In this document: positions 1-43,876 of the stretch, piece after piece
How the letters are laid out: the number at the start of each line of letters is the position of its first letter
Position numbering within the stretch: the first letter of the stretch is position 1
From: Halorubrum sodomense
GTDB lineage: Archaea > Halobacteriota > Halobacteria > Halobacteriales > Haloferacaceae
Assembly: GCF_900111935.1 (NCBI RefSeq)
Contig: NZ_FOYN01000002.1
Location: forward strand, 806,001 to 870,000
DNA length: 64,000 nt
Direction: 5' to 3'
Position numbers and translations under genes: made by a program
Notes under the pieces: model-generated
Told to the model about the DNA's origin: nothing
Seen by the model: only the letters and a program-made list of their open reading frames with translations
Database searches by the model: none

Positions 1-129
1 CGGACGTACATAGAGAGCCGTACGAGACCGGAAGTGAAAAGCGGTTCCCCGACGGCCGTTTCCGTTCGCGTCTCGGTCGCCGTTTCCCCCGACTGCGACG
101 CCGGGGTTGGTCTCGACGCGCGTCGGCAC

Positions 130-34277: not shown

Positions 34278-34355
34278 TTGCCTCACGTCGCGCGCGCCCC
34301 GACGTGAACTTTGTGCCTTCGGCTGCGGCGTTCTCGCGACCGATACCCGCGCCGA

Positions 34356-34367
34356 CAGTATTAAAGA
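34356..34367 (+). promoter_or_regulatory. TATA-like element of the DUF6517-type lipoprotein gene
   Basis: AGTATTAAAGAA lies about 25-35 bases before the ATG at 34391. It is one of few A/T patches in this divergent region. Confidence 0.5.
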
Positions 34368-34390
34368 ACCGCGAAGACCTACCTGTCCAC

Positions 34391-35074
34391 ATGAAACGAC
34401 GTGGGCTTCTCGCGGCGCTCGCCGCCTCGACGACGGTCGCTGTCGCCGGGTGCGCCGGCGGGGACGGAAACTACGAGTTCGACGCCGAACCGGCACGGAT
34501 ACCGGAGAGCGCGTACGCGGACACCGAGTTCACCGGCCAGGAGCCGGAGTCGTTCACCATCGAACAGGAGTTCAACGCCGCGGGCGTGAACGCGCAGGTG
34601 TCGGCGACGACGTGGATCGCCCGGTACATCAATTCGACGACGCAATCGGCGCTGTTCGTGGCGAGCACCCCGAACGCGTCCGTCGCCGGACAGTCCGTTA
34701 ACCCGCTCGTCAGAGCGGAGGGCGCAGATCTTATCCGGCGGCTCCTTAATCAGGTCAATCAGCAGGGGATCGGCGGTGGCAGCGCCGACATCCAAACGGA
34801 CGACATTCAGGACCGCGGCGAGGAGACCCGAACGATCCTCGACGAGGAGGCCACCGTCTCGATCTACGAGACGACGGTCAGCGCGGACGTCAACGGCCCG
34901 AACAACCAGAGCGGCTCCGTCGAGGACGTTCCCGTCCTCCTCTATATCGCGACCGTCCAACACCAGGCGGACGACGCGGACAGCGAGGACGTGATCGCGC
35001 TGGTGGGTCTCCATCCGGTAGGGGTCGACCAGTCCGAACAGCTGCTCTCGATGATGGAAGCCGTCGAACACTGA
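34391..35074 (+). CDS. Secreted lipoprotein, DUF6517-like
   Basis: A 227-residue exported protein. The N-terminus MKRRGLLAALAASTTVAVAGCAGGDG has paired basic residues, a hydrophobic core and a lipobox (VAGC, Cys at about 20), so it is probably exported and lipid-anchored outside the membrane. Two N-glycosylation sequons are visible (NSTT, NASV). The mature part matches my memory of the haloarchaeal DUF6517 family (YEFDAEPARIPESAYADTEF, ending LVGLHPVGVDQSEQLLSMMEAVEH). Function is unknown. It precedes the large surface-protein gene on the same strand. Confidence 0.85.
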   Translation: MKRRGLLAALAASTTVAVAGCAGGDGNYEFDAEPARIPESAYADTEFTGQEPESFTIEQEFNAAGVNAQVSATTWIARYINSTTQSALFVASTPNASVAGQSVNPLVRAEGADLIRRLLNQVNQQGIGGGSADIQTDDIQDRGEETRTILDEEATVSIYETTVSADVNGPNNQSGSVEDVPVLLYIATVQHQADDADSEDVIALVGLHPVGVDQSEQLLSMMEAVEH

Positions 35075-35354: not shown

Positions 35355-38300
35355 ATGACCCGGATGCGATCGTCCCAATGGCTGTCTATCGGTATCGCCC
35401 TCTGTTTGGTGATCAGCGTTATTGTAATACTAATAATTTCAGGAACATTTGTGGCCTCTGGAGAATTATGGGATGTGGATCGTGCCAGTGATCTAGAAAT
35501 TGGGACCGAGCAACAACAGGTGATAACTAATATCGAAGTACTTAGCTCAAATGAACCTGTTAAAATCCACGTTGGTGATCTTGTTGACTCTGGAGCGATC
35601 TTAGATCATAATTCGACATCTTATCAAATAAACATCGAAGGGAATAATATCAGTTCAGGTGTATATTTACAAAACTCAAACAGTTCAAATGCGGTGATTG
35701 TTATTTCTGCCTCCGCAATTTCTAGTCCTGGACGATTTGATCTTCACATCGACAATATTGATACGACGAATGTTAGCAGGTACAATCAGGAGGGCTCAAA
35801 GATCAACCGTGCTATCTCCTATACTGCTGAACAAGGAGGAAAGAAGGCAATAGTCGAATTTAGTGTGTCTTTTCCTGGATCCATCGAATTGTCTACTGGT
35901 GCGTACAACGACTCTACACGGTCTATTTCTTACGATTATTCTATTAAAAACAATTTAATCTTGAATACTTCTATAACTATCTGGAAAGGAAAACACGACG
36001 GAGGAATTGGAGAACAGATTAAGACTGTGAATATATCCGCTGAAAGTATTTCTCTAAGCGGTACAGGCCTTGAAGGTGAAACTAAACTAATAATTGGCCT
36101 CCATTCTTCTCGGAATAGGCCCCGCTCTGAGACAATTTACTCTTTAGACACAGATACAATTAATGTTACAGTGCCTGCTCAGATCGTGGGTGGGCCTTTC
36201 TATTATGATGGGTCTAAAACAGAACACAAATTCAATAGCACTCTTTTGTTTGAGTTTAATACGAATATATCTAGAGTACAAGGCTCTATTAATATTAACT
36301 TTTCAACTGGAAATACAACACAAATTTATCTTGTAGATCATACTCAAAAATATGATGTGAATGAGAATATTCTATACGTGTATCCATTTGCTTCTTCGAG
36401 TAATACGTCTTCTACTAATCAACTACGAATTAGTAATGTCTCTGTTAACAATATTACTTCTACATCAAGTGGAACTCCATTCAAGAATAGCTATGACTCA
36501 CCTGTACGTGTGAGTAAAATAGTATCTGATGATCGTGAATATACCGTTAATCGCGGATCAAATATTGGACTTTGGTTGGAAGACCAAACTAAGTACAATC
36601 TCTCAAAACTTAATGGCGATCTCGTTAGACAAATAGATGCTACTAACTCAAAAAGGATTTACAAACTCAGTACTGACAGACTTAGGCTCGGATATTATTC
36701 GCTAAACACCAGTTCTGAGACTACAAATACTACAATACGATTAGTTGAGCCCCATATTAACATCAAAGCAACAGATACAGTAACCGAATCACGGATACCG
36801 ATAAGTGTCCTCGCAACTGGGGCCAAGCGAACTGCTGTTCTTAGTGTGTTGGGCCCGAATTCTGAAGAAAAAAGTTTAGAAAATGTCATTTTAAATAATT
36901 CTTCTAATGTCAGTAGATTTGTCTCTGTTTCTCAGCCTGGAACATATACTATCGAAGTTTATGACCCGAACATAGGTCTAAATGTGACTCAAAAAGTAAA
37001 TGTCATTGAAAATCGGTCACCTTCTATTTATATTAATACCAGCGAAACAATATCCAATGGCAACCGTTTTAGATTCGTTCTTAATTCAACATATTCTAAT
37101 TCATCAGTTTCCTTAACCTCTGTAAATAACACCACAACCACACTCGAACTCACAACCTCTGAGACGGGCCCAACACCCGTCACAATCAACGCGTACGCGT
37201 CGCCGGCATCTCCGTCGGACTTCGTCACGACCGGTCCCGGTATCAGCGTCGATTCGGTCACGGGGGATACCGATCCGCTCTCGCCCGGGTCGTACGACCT
37301 CACGCTCCGGTCGGAGTACGGAGCCGCGGTCGCCAACGACTCCGCCGCGATCACGGTGAATCCTCGTTCGACGACCGACCTGACCGCGTACACCACGCGC
37401 GAAGCCGCCCCGGGCGACTTCGAGGACGCGACCGCCATCCGGAACGCGATCGCCAATGGAACGCTCACCGACGCGACGAACGCCACCGCCAACGACACGG
37501 TCGTGTACGCCGTGAACGCGACCGGGCTGACCGGCCTCCCGGCGGCCGCGAACGCCTCGCTGGAGCGCGGTGCGGACCTCGCTCGCCTCGACGGCCTCTC
37601 GTTCGGAGTGACGCCTACAGACGCGAACGACACCGACGCCTCCGCCACCGGCGACGCGCTCGGACCGACGCCGAACGAGTCTGCGGTCCACCTCGACCGC
37701 GACGGACTCTTCCTCGTCGCGGACGGCGAGACCGCGTTCGGAACCGAGACGCCACCGGCCGCCGGCGAGACGTTCGAGGCCGCCTTCAGGGTCGACGACG
37801 AACGACTGCGTCGGGCCGCGAACGGCGACCACCGGGTGACGACGCGACTGACGTACGCTGCCGACCCGACCGACGAGGGCGGAGCGAACCTCTCGGACGA
37901 CGGGTCTACCGCGACACCGTCACCGAGTACCGAGCCGACCGAGTCGACCGGATTGAACGAATCGACCGAATCGACCGGACTGAACGAATCGACCGAGTCG
38001 AGCGAATCGAGTGAACCGACCGAGGCGGCCGGGACGAGTGCCCCCGCTGAATCGGGAAGCGCGGACCGATCTGATCCGCCGGCCGGTTCCGGCGGTTCCG
38101 CCGGTCCAGCTGATGTCGGTGGCTCTTCTAGCGCCACCGATCAGACCGATCCCCGCTCCGCTCGCGCCGGCAACGCCACCGAAGCGGCCGGTCCGGGCCG
38201 GTCCGGGGAACCGAACGGTTCCGACGTGGACCGCCCGACGCCTCGTCCCGGAGTCGGAACGACGGTCCCGCCCGGTGCGTCCGGGATTCCGCCCGCTACG

Positions 38301-38630
38301 GACCCGGCGAAACGCTTCGGTACCGGATCGACGGGACGTACCGCGGACGACGCCTCGGAGCGGGGATCCCGTCCGGGTGACGGGCGATCGGGCGGTGACG
38401 CCGGGAGCGAGGGATCCGCGGCGTCGGAGTCCGCCGACTCGTCCGAACCGGCCGGACCGGCCGACTCGAACGAGTCGAAGTCCGACGAGGCCGCCGCGAG
38501 GGACCTCGGATACGACGACGCGCCGATCCGATCGACCGTGTACGATCTCCCCGGATTCGGCTCCGTCGCGTCCCTCGCGGCGCTGACGATTGCGTCGCTG
38601 CTCGCCCGCCGTCGTGCGCCCGACCCGTGA
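35355..38630 (+). CDS. Mosaic secreted PGF-CTERM surface protein with AT-rich N-terminal module
   Basis: A 1091-residue predicted S-layer/adhesin-like protein. Residues about 8-35 form a signal peptide. Residues about 40-590, encoded by strikingly AT-rich DNA, are Asn/Ser/Thr/Ile-rich, beta-like and full of N-glycosylation sequons. About 675-848 resembles the haloarchaeal DUF7827 domain (DLTAYTTREAAPGDFEDATA, DTVVYAVNATGLTGL). Then come a Ser/Thr/Glu-rich repeat linker (TGLNESTES twice) and a low-complexity stalk. The C-terminus is a PGF-CTERM anchor: LPGFG (1065-1069), a hydrophobic helix and ARRRAPDP. ArtA should cleave this signal and attach lipid. The GTG at 35265 is an alternative start giving 30 extra residues. 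The frame is continuous across the composition break at about 37140, so the gene appears functional. Confidence 0.88.
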   Translation: MTRMRSSQWLSIGIALCLVISVIVILIISGTFVASGELWDVDRASDLEIGTEQQQVITNIEVLSSNEPVKIHVGDLVDSGAILDHNSTSYQINIEGNNISSGVYLQNSNSSNAVIVISASAISSPGRFDLHIDNIDTTNVSRYNQEGSKINRAISYTAEQGGKKAIVEFSVSFPGSIELSTGAYNDSTRSISYDYSIKNNLILNTSITIWKGKHDGGIGEQIKTVNISAESISLSGTGLEGETKLIIGLHSSRNRPRSETIYSLDTDTINVTVPAQIVGGPFYYDGSKTEHKFNSTLLFEFNTNISRVQGSININFSTGNTTQIYLVDHTQKYDVNENILYVYPFASSSNTSSTNQLRISNVSVNNITSTSSGTPFKNSYDSPVRVSKIVSDDREYTVNRGSNIGLWLEDQTKYNLSKLNGDLVRQIDATNSKRIYKLSTDRLRLGYYSLNTSSETTNTTIRLVEPHINIKATDTVTESRIPISVLATGAKRTAVLSVLGPNSEEKSLENVILNNSSNVSRFVSVSQPGTYTIEVYDPNIGLNVTQKVNVIENRSPSIYINTSETISNGNRFRFVLNSTYSNSSVSLTSVNNTTTTLELTTSETGPTPVTINAYASPASPSDFVTTGPGISVDSVTGDTDPLSPGSYDLTLRSEYGAAVANDSAAITVNPRSTTDLTAYTTREAAPGDFEDATAIRNAIANGTLTDATNATANDTVVYAVNATGLTGLPAAANASLERGADLARLDGLSFGVTPTDANDTDASATGDALGPTPNESAVHLDRDGLFLVADGETAFGTETPPAAGETFEAAFRVDDERLRRAANGDHRVTTRLTYAADPTDEGGANLSDDGSTATPSPSTEPTESTGLNESTESTGLNESTESSESSEPTEAAGTSAPAESGSADRSDPPAGSGGSAGPADVGGSSSATDQTDPRSARAGNATEAAGPGRSGEPNGSDVDRPTPRPGVGTTVPPGASGIPPATDPAKRFGTGSTGRTADDASERGSRPGDGRSGGDAGSEGSAASESADSSEPAGPADSNESKSDEAAARDLGYDDAPIRSTVYDLPGFGSVASLAALTIASLLARRRAPDP

Positions 38631-38898: not shown

Positions 38899-39103
38899 TA
38901 GACGACTGGACGTTCTGCCACTCTGACCGGTGTGTGTGAAACGGTCTGGTGGCTTTCGCAGAAACTTCGTCAATTTACTGCCCGTTACGGTACGACTACT
39001 GATCGATCCGACGGTGTGGTATCTGTTCACCTCCCGTGATGAATAATTACCTTATATTCCCTAATGTGTGTACGATGGATCCTACCCCTATCAGGGTCAT
39101 ACC

Positions 39104-39110
39104 TTTAAGT
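39104..39110 (+). promoter_or_regulatory. TATA-like element of gltB
   Basis: TTTAAGT lies about 25 bases before the ATG at 39131, supporting that start and a leaderless mRNA. The ~230-base gap upstream is moderately AT-rich and may hold nitrogen-regulation sites, but no clear operator is seen. Confidence 0.6.
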
Positions 39111-39130
39111 GTTCATTCGTGAAAACGCGT

Positions 39131-42100
39131 ATGACCAAGTCACGTAGTACCACCCGGGGCGTACGCGACTCGGATTCCTCGGGTCAGGAAGGGGGGCTCG
39201 CGGCGCCGACGGACGACCGATCGAACTGCGGCATCGGCGGCGTCGTCGACCTCGACGGCGAGCCGACTCACGAGACCGTCGCGGACGCGGTCGAACTGCT
39301 CGAGAACCTCGAACACCGCGGGACGACCGGCGCGGAAGAGAACACGGGCGACGGCGCGGGGATCATGGTCGCCCGCCCCGACGGGTTCTTCCGCGAGGTC
39401 GTCGACGCCGACCTCCCGGACGAGTACGCGGTCGGCTCCGTCTTCATGCCGCCGGAACCGGGCGTTCAAGCGGAGATCCACGACGTCATTGCCGAGGTGT
39501 GTGCCGTCTACGGGCTGGAAGTGCTCGCGTGGCGCTCCGTCCCCACCGACAACGCCGACCTCGGCGCGACGGCGCTCGAGTCCGAACCGGAGGTGTCGCA
39601 GGTGTTCGTCGCCCCCGTCGAGGGCGCGGGCCTCGCCCAGCGGTTCACGAGCGAGGGGACTCGGCCGGACGACGCCGACCCCGACCTGCTCGGCTTCGAC
39701 CGCGCGCTGTACGCCGCCCGCCGCGAGATCGAGAACGCGGTGTCCGACGTCGACGGCGCCGGCCGTTTCTACGTCTGCTCGCTCGACCGCCAGCGCGTCG
39801 TCTACAAGGGCCTGCTGAAGGGGTCGCAGCTCGTGGGCTACTACCCGGACCTGGTCGACGAGCGGTTCGCCAGCCACGTCGCCTTAGTCCACGCGCGGTT
39901 CTCGACGAACACGCTCGGCGCGTGGCACCTCGCACACCCGTACCGCAACATCGTCCACAACGGCGAGTTCAACACGATCCGCGGGAACGTCAACTGGATG
40001 CGGGCCCGCGAGAACGACCTCGAACACCCGGCGTTCGGCGCCGAGCTCGACACGATCAAGCCGGTGATCGACGACCCCAACCAGTCGGACACCGCCAGCG
40101 TCGACAACGCGCTCGAACTCCTCCTCCAGACCGACCGCGACCTCCCGCACGCGCTCCGGATGCTGATCCCGGAGGCGTTCCGCGGCGACGACCTGATGGG
40201 TGACGACCGCGCGGACTTCTACGACTACCACGCCTCGCTCGTCGAGCCGTGGGACGGGCCCGCACTCGTCATCGGCTTCGACGGCGAGCGCGTCGCCGGC
40301 GTCCTCGACCGCAACGGGCTCCGCCCGTGCCGCTACGAGGTGACGACGGACGACCGCCTCGTCGTCGGCAGCGAGGTGGGGGCGCTCCCCACCGAGCCCG
40401 CCGACGTGCGCCGCCGCGGTCGGCTCCAGCCCGGGGAGATCTTCGTCGCGGACCCCGAGGCCGGTCGGATCGTCCCCGACGACGAGGTGTTCGAGGAGCT
40501 CACCGACGAGAAGTACGGCGAGTGGGTCGACCGCGGGCAGGTCGATCTCGACGCGCTCACCGACGAGGACGACGCGCTCACCGACGGGGACGGCGTCGCG
40601 GCCGGGATCGACGACGACTCGAACGAACGAGGAGGCGGGGCGGCCGGGGCTGACGAGGCGGACGAAACGGACGAGACGGAACCGACCGTCCGCGCCCACC
40701 AGGCCGCGTTCGGCTACACCACCGACTCGCTGAACCACCTCGTCGAGCCGATGGCGAGAGAGGGGAAAGATCCCGTCGGGTCGATGGGTGACGACACGCC
40801 GCTCTCGGTCCTCGCCGACGTCGACCGCCCGCTTTTCACCTACTTCAAGCAGCTGTTCGCGCAGGTGTCGAACCCGCCGATCGACTACATCCGCGAGGAG
40901 CTCGTCACCTCGCTGGAGACCCGGATCGGGAACCAGCGAAACCTGCTCGCGGAGACGCCGGAACACGCCGAGCAGATAGTCGCCGACACCCCGGTCCTGA
41001 CGGACGCTGAGACGACCGCGCTTCGCGATCTCCCCGGACCCGGCGAGCGGACTCCCGGTGACCGCGGCGGAGCGGCGGCCGACGGTCCCGAGTTCGCCTC
41101 CGTCACCGTCGACGTCACCTACGACCGCGACGGCTCGCTCGTCGACGCCGTGAGTCGGGTCCGCGAGGACGCCGCGACGGCGATCGAAGACGGGGCCGAC
41201 GCCGTCGTCCTCTCCGACCGCGCCGTCGGTCCGGACCGCCTCGCGGTGCCGAGCCTGCTCGCGACCGGCGCGGTCCACCACCACCTCGTCCGCGAGGGGC
41301 TGCGCAACCGCGCGGGCGTCGTCGTCGAGTCCGGTGAACCGCACGAGGTCCACCACCTCGCGACGCTGGTCGGCTACGGCGCGGACGCGGTCGACCCGTA
41401 CCTCGCGTACGCCTCCATCGCCGACGTGGTCGCCGGCCCGGACGGCGCCGACGAGGACGAGGCGCTCGCCGCGTACCGTCACGCGCTGGAGGACGGCCTC
41501 CTGAAGACGATGGCGAAGATGGGCATCTCGACGATGGAGTCGTACCAGGGCGCCCAGATATTCGAGGCGGTCGGGCTCGACTCCGACTTCGTCGCCGAGT
41601 ACTTCGAGGGCACCGAGATCCGGACCGAGGGGATCGGGATCGAACAGATCGAAGACGACCTCCGCACGCGCCACGCGATGGCGTTCGGCGCCGACCCCGA
41701 ACTGGAGACCGTCGGCGAGTACGAACACCGCTCGTCGGGCGTGAAACACGGCTGGAACCCCCAGACGGTCGGCACGCTCCAGCAGGCGGTCCGCGGCGGC
41801 GACTACGAGCAGTACCGCGAGTTCGCGGAGCTGGTGAACGACCAGACGGAAGAGCTCCAGTCGCTCCGCGGCCTCCTGGAGTTCGACTCCGACCGCGACC
41901 CGGTGCCGGTCGAGGAGGTCGAGCCCGTCGAGTCGATCGTCGAGCGGTTCTCGACGGCCGCGATGAGCCTCGGGAGCATCTCGCCGGAGGCCCACGAGAA
42001 CAACGCCATCGCGATGAACCGGCTGGGCGCGAAGTCGAACACCGGCGAGGGCGGCGAACCGCCCGAGCGGTTCGACACCGAGAAGGAGTGTACCGTCAAG

Positions 42101-43876
42101 CAGGTCGCCTCCGGCCGCTTCGGCGTCACCTCGGAGTACCTCGCGAACGCCGAGGAGCTCCAGATCAAGATGGCGCAGGGGTCGAAGCCCGGCGAGGGCG
42201 GGCACCTCCCCGGCAAGAAGGTCAACGAGATGATCGCGCACGTCCGGTGTTCCACGCCCGGCGTCGGGCTCATCTCGCCGCCGCCCCAGCACGACATCTA
42301 CTCGATCGAGGACCTGAAGCAGCTCATCTTCGACCTGAAGGCCGCCAGCCCCGAGGCAGACGTCAACGTGAAGCTGGTCTCGGAGGCCGGGATCGGCACC
42401 ATCGCGGCCGGCGTCGCGAAGGCGAACGCCGACGTCGTCCACATATCCGGTCACGACGGTGGCACCGGCGCCTCGCCGAAGACCTCGATCAAGAACGCCG
42501 GCCTGCCGTGGGAGCTCGGGCTCGCGGAGGCGAACCAGATGCTTCGCGCCACCGGCCTGCGCGACCGGATTCGCGTCTCTGCGGACGGTGGCCTGCGGAC
42601 CGGCCGCGACGTGGCGGTCGCGGCCGCGCTCGGGGCCGAGGAGTACATCTTCGGGACCGCGTCGCTCGTCACGTCGGGCTGCGTGATGGCCCGGCAGTGC
42701 CACGAGAACACCTGTCCGGTCGGCGTCGCCACCCAGCGCGAGGACCTCCGCCAGCGGTTCCCGGGCCAGCCCGACCACGTCATCAACTACATGACGTTCA
42801 TCGCGCAGGAGCTCCGGGAGATCATGGCCGAGCAGGGGTACACCGAGCTGGAGGCGTTCGTCGGCCGCCCCGAGCTGCTCACCCAGCGCGAGACGGACCA
42901 CGAGAAGGCGAAGCACCTCGACCTGTCCGCGGTGATCGCCGAGCCCGCGGGCGAGTCCCGCACCAAGGTCCGCGAGCAGGCCCACGACGGCATCGACGAC
43001 CTGCTCGACTGGGACCTCATCGACGAGGCGGCGCCCGCAATCGAGGACGGCGCGCCGGTCGCGCTCACCCGCGACGTGCGCAACGTCGACCGCGCGGTCG
43101 GCGCCACGCTCTCGAACCGCGTCGTCTCCGAACACGGCGGCGAGGGGCTCCCGGACGACACCATCTCCTGCCGGTTCGACGGCGAGGCCGGACAGAGCTT
43201 CGGCGCGTTCCTCGCACCGGGGATCACGATGGAACTCTCCGGCGCCGCCAACGACTACGTCGGCAAGGGGCTCTCCGGCGGGCGCCTCGTGATCGACACG
43301 CCGGCGGAGGCGGGGTACGACCCGACCGAGAACGTCGTCGCGGGCAACGTCTGCCTGTACGGCGCCACCTCGGGCGAGATGTACGTCAACGGCGTCGCCG
43401 GCGAGCGGTTCGGCGTCCGTAACTCCGGCGTGAAGGCCGTCGTCGAGGGCGTCGGCGACCACGGCTGCGAGTACATGACCGGCGGCGTCGTCGCCGTCCT
43501 CGGCGACACCGGGCGCAACTTCGCAGCCGGGATGTCCGGCGGCGTCGCGTACGTGTACGACCCCGACGACCGCCTCGACGACCGCGTCAACCGCGGGATG
43601 GTGTCGGTCTCCGAGACGCTCGAGGAGTCCGACGAGCGGATGCTCCGCCGCCTCGTCGAGAACCACCGCGCGTACACCGACAGCGAGCGCGCGGCGGACC
43701 TGCTCGACGACTGGGGGACCGCGCTCGACGACTTCGTCCGGGTCTTCCCCGACGCGTACGCCGATGTCATCGCGGAGGGCAAGGGCGCCGACGTGCGCGA
43801 GGACCCGCCCGCGCCCGCGGCCGCGGTTCCGGGTGCAGACGCCGACGCGGCCGGGCAGGTCTCCGGCGACGACTGA
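39131..43876 (+). CDS. gltB: Glutamate synthase, large subunit
   Basis: Makes glutamate from glutamine and 2-oxoglutarate, the GOGAT half of ammonium assimilation. The 1581-residue protein has the class II glutamine amidotransferase domain with nucleophile Cys33 (DRSNCGIGG) after a short leader, a central domain, an FMN/2-oxoglutarate synthase domain (MGISTMESYQGAQIFEAVGL, HDGGTGASPKTS), the 3Fe-4S ligand segment CVMARQCHENTCPVGVATQ (about 1178-1196) and a C-terminal beta-helix (VNGVAGERFGVRNSG, GCEYMTGG). An acidic low-complexity insert (about 476-515, including ADEADETDETE) separates the amidotransferase from the rest. No small-subunit gene is adjacent, as is usual in haloarchaea. Confidence 0.95.
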   Translation: MTKSRSTTRGVRDSDSSGQEGGLAAPTDDRSNCGIGGVVDLDGEPTHETVADAVELLENLEHRGTTGAEENTGDGAGIMVARPDGFFREVVDADLPDEYAVGSVFMPPEPGVQAEIHDVIAEVCAVYGLEVLAWRSVPTDNADLGATALESEPEVSQVFVAPVEGAGLAQRFTSEGTRPDDADPDLLGFDRALYAARREIENAVSDVDGAGRFYVCSLDRQRVVYKGLLKGSQLVGYYPDLVDERFASHVALVHARFSTNTLGAWHLAHPYRNIVHNGEFNTIRGNVNWMRARENDLEHPAFGAELDTIKPVIDDPNQSDTASVDNALELLLQTDRDLPHALRMLIPEAFRGDDLMGDDRADFYDYHASLVEPWDGPALVIGFDGERVAGVLDRNGLRPCRYEVTTDDRLVVGSEVGALPTEPADVRRRGRLQPGEIFVADPEAGRIVPDDEVFEELTDEKYGEWVDRGQVDLDALTDEDDALTDGDGVAAGIDDDSNERGGGAAGADEADETDETEPTVRAHQAAFGYTTDSLNHLVEPMAREGKDPVGSMGDDTPLSVLADVDRPLFTYFKQLFAQVSNPPIDYIREELVTSLETRIGNQRNLLAETPEHAEQIVADTPVLTDAETTALRDLPGPGERTPGDRGGAAADGPEFASVTVDVTYDRDGSLVDAVSRVREDAATAIEDGADAVVLSDRAVGPDRLAVPSLLATGAVHHHLVREGLRNRAGVVVESGEPHEVHHLATLVGYGADAVDPYLAYASIADVVAGPDGADEDEALAAYRHALEDGLLKTMAKMGISTMESYQGAQIFEAVGLDSDFVAEYFEGTEIRTEGIGIEQIEDDLRTRHAMAFGADPELETVGEYEHRSSGVKHGWNPQTVGTLQQAVRGGDYEQYREFAELVNDQTEELQSLRGLLEFDSDRDPVPVEEVEPVESIVERFSTAAMSLGSISPEAHENNAIAMNRLGAKSNTGEGGEPPERFDTEKECTVKQVASGRFGVTSEYLANAEELQIKMAQGSKPGEGGHLPGKKVNEMIAHVRCSTPGVGLISPPPQHDIYSIEDLKQLIFDLKAASPEADVNVKLVSEAGIGTIAAGVAKANADVVHISGHDGGTGASPKTSIKNAGLPWELGLAEANQMLRATGLRDRIRVSADGGLRTGRDVAVAAALGAEEYIFGTASLVTSGCVMARQCHENTCPVGVATQREDLRQRFPGQPDHVINYMTFIAQELREIMAEQGYTELEAFVGRPELLTQRETDHEKAKHLDLSAVIAEPAGESRTKVREQAHDGIDDLLDWDLIDEAAPAIEDGAPVALTRDVRNVDRAVGATLSNRVVSEHGGEGLPDDTISCRFDGEAGQSFGAFLAPGITMELSGAANDYVGKGLSGGRLVIDTPAEAGYDPTENVVAGNVCLYGATSGEMYVNGVAGERFGVRNSGVKAVVEGVGDHGCEYMTGGVVAVLGDTGRNFAAGMSGGVAYVYDPDDRLDDRVNRGMVSVSETLEESDERMLRRLVENHRAYTDSERAADLLDDWGTALDDFVRVFPDAYADVIAEGKGADVREDPPAPAAAVPGADADAAGQVSGDD

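Follow-up and report, generated by a model that had tools for sequence, protein, structure and literature searches.

Two alternative AT-rich forms of a surface-glycoprotein module in Halorubrum: a probable ancient balanced polymorphism

The composition break and the gene that carries it

The locus raises the question of why half of one surface-protein gene should be AT-rich in an otherwise GC-rich region. In the window, which is the whole 64-kb stretch of Halorubrum sodomense DNA analysed here, the GC content is 0.60-0.70 before the break, 0.29-0.45 from ~35400 to ~37130, and 0.67-0.75 afterwards, and GC3 is 0.16-0.38 inside the module and 0.62-0.92 after 37215. On average, the module and the rest differ in both GC (~0.37 vs 0.70) and GC3 (~0.29 vs 0.81). 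The module is the sole AT-rich stretch within the window, and equally AT-rich windows represent 0.05% of the 3992 overlapping 1.7-kb windows in 800 kb of the same contig. A two-changepoint fit places the GC steps at ATG+48 (~35403) and at ~37163, and the single uninterrupted frame, from the ATG at 35355 to the stop at 38630, is intact across both. The first-pass annotation had described an abrupt composition break inside one gene with the frame kept across both junctions, and both observations were confirmed.

From the N- to the C-terminus, the gene encodes a signal peptide, the AT-rich module, a GC-rich domain (hereafter the C-domain), an acidic Ser/Gly-rich low-complexity stalk, and a PGF-CTERM anchor. 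The features of the locus are as follows.

34304..35074, + strand: DUF6517 gene upstream, a conserved flank and the same neighbour in class A and class B genomes (profile, flank comparison)
35355..38630, + strand: whole surface-protein gene, 1091 aa (translation, PGF-CTERM profile matches)
35355..35432, + strand: 5' shared segment, the ~26 first codons (signal peptide start), traded freely between A and B haplotypes (G000/G028 identity break at ATG+78; first-25-aa identities)
35433..37127, + strand: class A idiomorph, the AT-rich module with a GC of ~0.37, modelled by AlphaFold as a multi-beta-sandwich (Ig-like) fold (composition, relatives, identity breaks, model)
37128..37187, + strand: 3' shared segment, the ~20 final codons of the module region, traded freely between the classes (identity breaks; last-20-aa identities)
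37188..37967, + strand: conserved GC-rich C-domain, common to both classes (alignment, census, tree)
37968..38549, + strand: low-complexity Ser/Glu/Gly-rich stalk (translation)
38550..38615, + strand: PGF-CTERM membrane/lipid anchor signal, aa 1066-1087 (profile match)
39068..43876, + strand: gltB (glutamate synthase) downstream, a conserved flank and independent marker (profile, tree)

The predicted anchor was recovered by Pfam PF18204 (21.0 bits, cut-off 18.8) and fell slightly below the threshold of NCBIfam TIGR04126 (21.6 bits, cut-off 24.5); the protein ends in a PGF-CTERM motif, a hydrophobic stretch and a basic tail, as substrates of archaeosortase A do. The reported richness in glycosylation sequons and the contrast with acidic surroundings also held, with 28 N-X-S/T sequons in the module of the window (17-30 over relatives) and a mean net charge per residue of ~-0.04 in class A modules vs -0.10 in the C-domain. 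The description of the C-domain as DUF7827-like was not upheld, as no Pfam family was credibly matched by it; diverged relatives of this domain are present in surface proteins across the order. Against the NCBIfam S-layer glycoprotein model NF041335, the protein scores 8.8 bits, with a cut-off of 1100.

Even close species have stalks of markedly different length and sequence, and assembly breaks occur near the gene in several draft genomes. In G033 (L033; assigned H. californiense), the orthologous frame stops early, at 953 aa, while homology to the anchor part continues in the DNA beyond, which suggests a frameshift or an assembly error in the low-complexity stalk.

Two classes of module at one locus

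In the relatives, an orthologue is found, usually between the DUF6517 gene and gltB, and nearly every orthologue has the same AT-rich N-terminal half and the same GC-rich C-terminal half with its PGF-CTERM anchor. The module of the window is 46-64% identical to those of near relatives and 23-30% identical to far ones, and many orthologues carry in the same place an AT-rich module that is unlike that of the window except at its ends. All modules sort into two classes, one starting with WDVD.ASDLEIG..Q.VI.NIEV (class A, including the window) and the other with ..YLN.TG.P..IR.GQS.QNI..IEI (class B). Among 52 Halorubrum genomes, one per species, 21 carry class A, 27 carry class B, none carries both and 4 were assigned to neither, with weak cross-class matches to the shared module ends left uncounted and with the calls in fragmented genomes (e.g. 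G018, G003, G013) resting on partial modules. The ratio of 21:27 is compatible with 1:1 (p = 0.47), and the C-domain has one strong copy in each of the 52 genomes. Two highly diverged, mutually exclusive alternatives are thus found at one locus, as is characteristic of idiomorphs. The DUF6517 gene and gltB flank class A and class B alike, and therefore no local partner gene was found at the locus.

Several exceptional loci were also observed. Two related genomes, G004 (L050) and G059 (L101), carry class B modules without about the first 180 residues (domain 1), which match model positions ~180-596 only; from the sequence, this appears to be a natural deletion of the outermost domain. In G006 (L102), the class B frame contains an interruption at about model position 476 (one TAG was read through), possibly a disrupted allele. 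In deep Halorubrum lineages (G034, L114; G075, L106; G064, L232; G001, L233; G071, L236), the gene is not present upstream of gltB. G034 and G075 carry it elsewhere, possibly with one common downstream neighbour, with an A-type and a B-type module, respectively, each in an AT island; G064 appears to lack the gene.

The same composition contrast is observed over the genus. In the 25 loci first compared, GC3 is 0.22-0.39 in the module and 0.68-0.88 in the C-domain, and the loci added later, including deep splits, show the same GC contrast with the exception of one contig-end fragment. At 4-fold sites, class A modules have a mean GC of 0.318 and class B modules one of 0.309, and their C-domains have 0.852 and 0.877, respectively. 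Moreover, dS is 0.4-1.0 in most pairs, and synonymous sites are thus near saturation even between fairly close species. Because the module nevertheless keeps a 4-fold GC of ~0.31, an import whose composition is fading with time is excluded, and the AT-rich state must be maintained. Most relatives that these domains have in other genera are not AT-rich (GC roughly 0.45-0.7), and the same holds for most Halorubrum paralogues of the C-domain protein. A horizontally acquired insert was considered and rejected: the module is present in close relatives and its composition is not ameliorating. The first-pass annotation had inferred that foreign DNA replaced the outer domain, and had itself named an AT-rich half shared by close relatives with ordinary divergence as the result that would speak against this; such a half is carried by orthologues genus-wide, with ordinary within-class divergence. 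In addition, the search for a donor in plasmids, viral contigs and 243 genomes of the order returned no full-length module outside the genus.

The sole other large AT-rich cluster in the 800 kb of the contig of the window (G000 C8, 310751-322250) is larger and contains genes for glycosyltransferases, a polysaccharide flippase and transposases (IS elements). The AT-rich state is thus common to this surface-glycan locus and the module. A further AT-rich stretch (GC 0.35-0.41) is observed in G005 (C9, ~92000-94000; L240) beside a paralogous surface-protein gene.

The relationship between the two classes was assessed by profile alignment and structure prediction. The whole-module alignment with hhalign gave a probability of 98.9%; with the shared ends removed, this fell to 10% (E 0.003, the first ~200 columns only; reversed control 0.2%). 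Since the score collapses without the ends, it comes mostly from the recombining ends, and A and B are not reliably homologous outside them; only domain 1 may be distantly homologous. No credible family was found for either module in Pfam and NCBIfam, the few weak Pfam matches in single members being probably due to chance, and a sequence search of solved structures returned no match. AlphaFold models of both classes are predicted as chains of beta-sandwiches, with a pLDDT of 80 for A and 66 for B. For the class B model, the best Foldseek match among solved structures is the Haloferax S-layer protein (csg) 7ptp, with an E of 9e-11 and a TM-score of only 0.2; the class A model matched many Ig-chain proteins, with 7ptp absent from the first 50 matches. 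Because the TM-scores are low, the models support a general multi-Ig architecture and nothing finer.

Edges of the module, exchange of flanks and age of the classes

Close pairs of opposite class (Atlit-26R/G061, G021/G016, G022/G025 and others) show DNA identity up to 100% outside the module and ~40%, the chance level, inside; no identity drop was observed in the module of same-class pairs. Between Atlit-26R (A) and G061 (B), the flanks reach 98-100% and the module 30-54% per 100 nt. The downstream side of this pair is ~94% identical, which makes it the case nearest to a within-species comparison in a sample of one genome per species. The Atlit-26R module is 90.7% identical in amino acids to the H. 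distributum module, and its downstream flank is nearest to that of class B G061, a pattern as expected if the form had been swapped in or if a shared polymorphism had been inherited. Fitting places the identity breaks 34-90 nt past the ATG (at ATG+78 in G000/G028) and, in all pairs but one, 45-70 nt before the C-domain (NTYA-45 to -70). At both ends, most of the fitted GC steps are no more than 60 nt away from these breaks.

The first-pass annotation had proposed that alignment to relatives would separate conserved ends from a varying middle, and this was observed. In a comparison of 36 sequences within clades, the identity of same-class vs different-class pairs was 0.53 vs 0.52 in the first 25 aa (the signal-peptide start), 0.61 vs 0.60 in the last 20 aa, 0.69 vs 0.68 in the C-domain, and 0.49 vs 0.24 in the module core, where 0.24 is the background. 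Because the ends and the C-domain follow clade and the core follows class, A and B haplotypes have freely traded their flanks right up to the edges but not their cores. Homologous, recombining flanks with sharp edges are a further property of idiomorph loci.

The classes are also old. In trees with weak support inside clades, the A/B label requires 12 changes on the gltB tree (shuffled mean 14.5; as low in 57-68 of 500 shuffles) and 14 on the C-domain tree (shuffled mean 13.9), and class next to the module is about as scattered as shuffled labels. Opposite classes occur in sisters or near-sisters on the gltB tree, including G021 (assigned H. tebenquichense, A) and G016 (B), G022 (A) and SW_8_68_21 (G025, B), and G066 (assigned H. 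coriense, A) and G030 (assigned H. ezzemoulense, B), and neither class is fixed in any well-sampled clade. In the class A tree and, separately, in the class B tree, species clades 1 and 3 are each monophyletic (100/100), and clade 2 comes close to a single group or forms one with weak support. Since the within-class module trees follow the species clades, both classes are older than the main-clade splits and have been kept in each clade. Thus, as in idiomorphs, the alleles are older than the species, over which A and B are scattered.

Within classes, dN/dS is 0.18-0.39, like that of the C-domain, which indicates purifying selection, and each class is therefore functionally constrained. These values argue against three further candidates, namely hypervariability through diversifying selection, an antigenic arms race that yields many variants, and an insert that is neutral or in decay. 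The suggestion that cassette exchange diversifies the surface was retained in part: the module is swapped in one piece, with signal peptide and anchor left in place, and surface identity therefore differs between close relatives. A hypervariable set of cassettes is not what was found, as there are two classes under purifying selection and no second copy.

Proposed explanation, alternatives and comparison with known systems

Herein, we suggest that the module is probably an ancient balanced two-allele (idiomorph) part of a multi-Ig surface glycoprotein, swapped via recombination in its flanks and maintained by frequency-dependent recognition, as judged from one genome per species. First, the sequences show an outer module with two alternative versions (class A in the window), set apart by a sharply bounded replacement of ~1.7 kb; it makes up the Ig-like part, prone to N-glycosylation, of a surface protein that resembles S-layer proteins and is anchored in the membrane. 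Second, once DNA had been transferred or cells had fused, homologous recombination in the conserved flanks would let cells exchange one form for the other. Third, both forms would persist by negative frequency dependence, with the other or rarer form favoured through surface recognition by viruses or fusion partners. Fourth, the AT-richness might arise because A and B are unable to recombine inside the module, so that the force keeping the genome GC-rich (e.g. biased gene conversion) would be weak there and mutation would pull the composition to AT. This last step is the weakest of the proposal and is held with less confidence than swapping and persistence. The coincidence of the composition step with the exchange boundary suggests such an escape, and codon selection for Asn, Ser and Thr alone cannot explain a 4-fold GC of 0.31. 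However, recombination within a class is still possible, which weakens the explanation, as does a gene-conversion experiment in Haloferax volcanii in which the direction of conversion did not track GC content (PMC8223754). It counts against the proposal as a whole that the gene sits apart from gltB in a few deep lineages.

The nature of the recognition may be considered in two forms. It is a tentative possibility that A and B are alternative virus receptors or shields, both being kept because viruses track the commoner form. The dense sequons are consistent with this role, as is the glycosyltransferase/flippase content of the only other large AT-rich cluster in the 800 kb, and fusion of the pleolipovirus HRPV-6 is triggered by S-layer extract of its Halorubrum host (PMC8875312). 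The S-layer protein of that host, however, resembles those of Haloferax (PMC8875312), whereas the present protein falls far short of the S-layer model (8.8 bits vs 1100); moreover, receptor arms races usually yield many alleles and positive selection, and here two classes with a dN/dS of ~0.2 are observed. The small, fixed number of classes and the purifying selection speak somewhat more for a recognition or compatibility locus than for an arms race.

Alternatively, and about as tentatively, the module might determine cell-cell recognition (mating or fusion compatibility, or allorecognition), the number of forms staying at two because each would recognise the other or itself. The presence of exactly two ancient classes in a ratio near 1:1, each under purifying selection, resembles bi-allelic fungal mating-type and het loci (PMC11138114). 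Mating in haloarchaea proceeds through cell fusion, with higher efficiency between cells of one species, and surface glycosylation affects it (PMC5496957). On the other hand, the genes linked to the module include no partner that differs with class. H. volcanii, the haloarchaeon used for fusion studies, also fuses with itself: it mates between derivatives of one strain, so that strict mating types are not general in haloarchaea. A and B could even be an archaeal two-allele locus of mating-type or allorecognition kind that decides adhesion or fusion in Halorubrum, with the AT island as the footprint of ancient suppressed exchange, a bolder idea that we consider rather unlikely.

Repeated transfer of two forms between species would also scatter the labels without any balancing selection, and the two old forms might then move by frequent recombination as turnover, perhaps with a niche difference. 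The free recombination of the flanks is in keeping with this account, as is the pairing in Atlit-26R of a distributum-like module with a downstream flank nearest to G061. We regard it as unlikely, as drift alone should fix one form, yet each well-sampled clade has retained both, and the species clades stay intact in the module trees; from this it follows that transfer between clades is rare and that both forms have lasted inside each clade. Programmed switching in one genome, through silent cassettes, inversion or a diversity-generating retroelement, would fit the unit-like exchange of a surface domain and is very improbable given the purifying selection, the lack of a second copy of either class in any of the 52 genus genomes and the lack of strong repeats bordering the module; a silent-cassette or phase-variation system was rejected for the want of such copies or repeats. 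Replacement of the outer domain in this genome by foreign AT-rich DNA, for which the sharp step within one frame would speak, is extremely improbable in view of the same step in genus orthologues, saturated divergence, equilibrium 4-fold GC and no donor in plasmids, viral contigs or other genera.

In eukaryotes, ancient two-form trans-species polymorphisms are typical signs of sex, of self-recognition and of a balance between hosts and parasites. If the balanced-polymorphism reading is true, one gene with two alleles in many culturable species would allow direct tests of archaeal cell-cell or virus-cell recognition. In addition, because the composition steps mostly lie only tens of bases from the points at which A/B recombination stops, the module amounts to a natural experiment on the causes of GC-richness in archaeal genomes. 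The literature searched for mating types or trans-species polymorphism in archaea, Halorubrum included, contained nothing relevant.

Several known systems may be compared with this locus. Surface-antigen and pherotype dimorphisms of bacteria, such as the agr groups and the transferrin-binding-protein isotypes, likewise consist of few discrete allelic groups with flank recombination; they concern other proteins in another domain of life, and the likeness is by description only. The haloarchaeal ArtA-dependent PGF-CTERM S-layer and surface glycoproteins (Haloferax csg, 7ptp) have in common with the present protein a signal peptide, a chain of Ig-like sandwiches, sequons and PGF-CTERM, but the Halorubrum protein has no sequence match to solved structures and lies far below the S-layer model cut-off. 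VARTIG of Thermococcales is also a large archaeal Ig-domain protein with a region traded between species, for which self/non-self roles have been proposed (PMC8416519), and its authors found no closely resembling module in their search of other archaea (PMC8416519). In VARTIG, the C-terminal Ig domain varies, is hypervariable and is accompanied by variable downstream Ig genes (PMC8416519), whereas the Halorubrum locus departs from this pattern in having a dimorphic N-terminal part, purifying selection within classes (dN/dS ~0.2) and gltB downstream. The closest agreement in form is with fungal idiomorphs and het alleles, e.g. in Aspergillus fumigatus, where very diverged, exclusive alleles at one locus are trans-species and have a narrow footprint and recombining flanks, and where het genes are under balancing selection (PMC11138114). 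The Halorubrum locus differs from these in being archaeal, in comprising the extracellular domain of one surface protein and an AT-rich module, and in being known here from sequence, with one genome per species.
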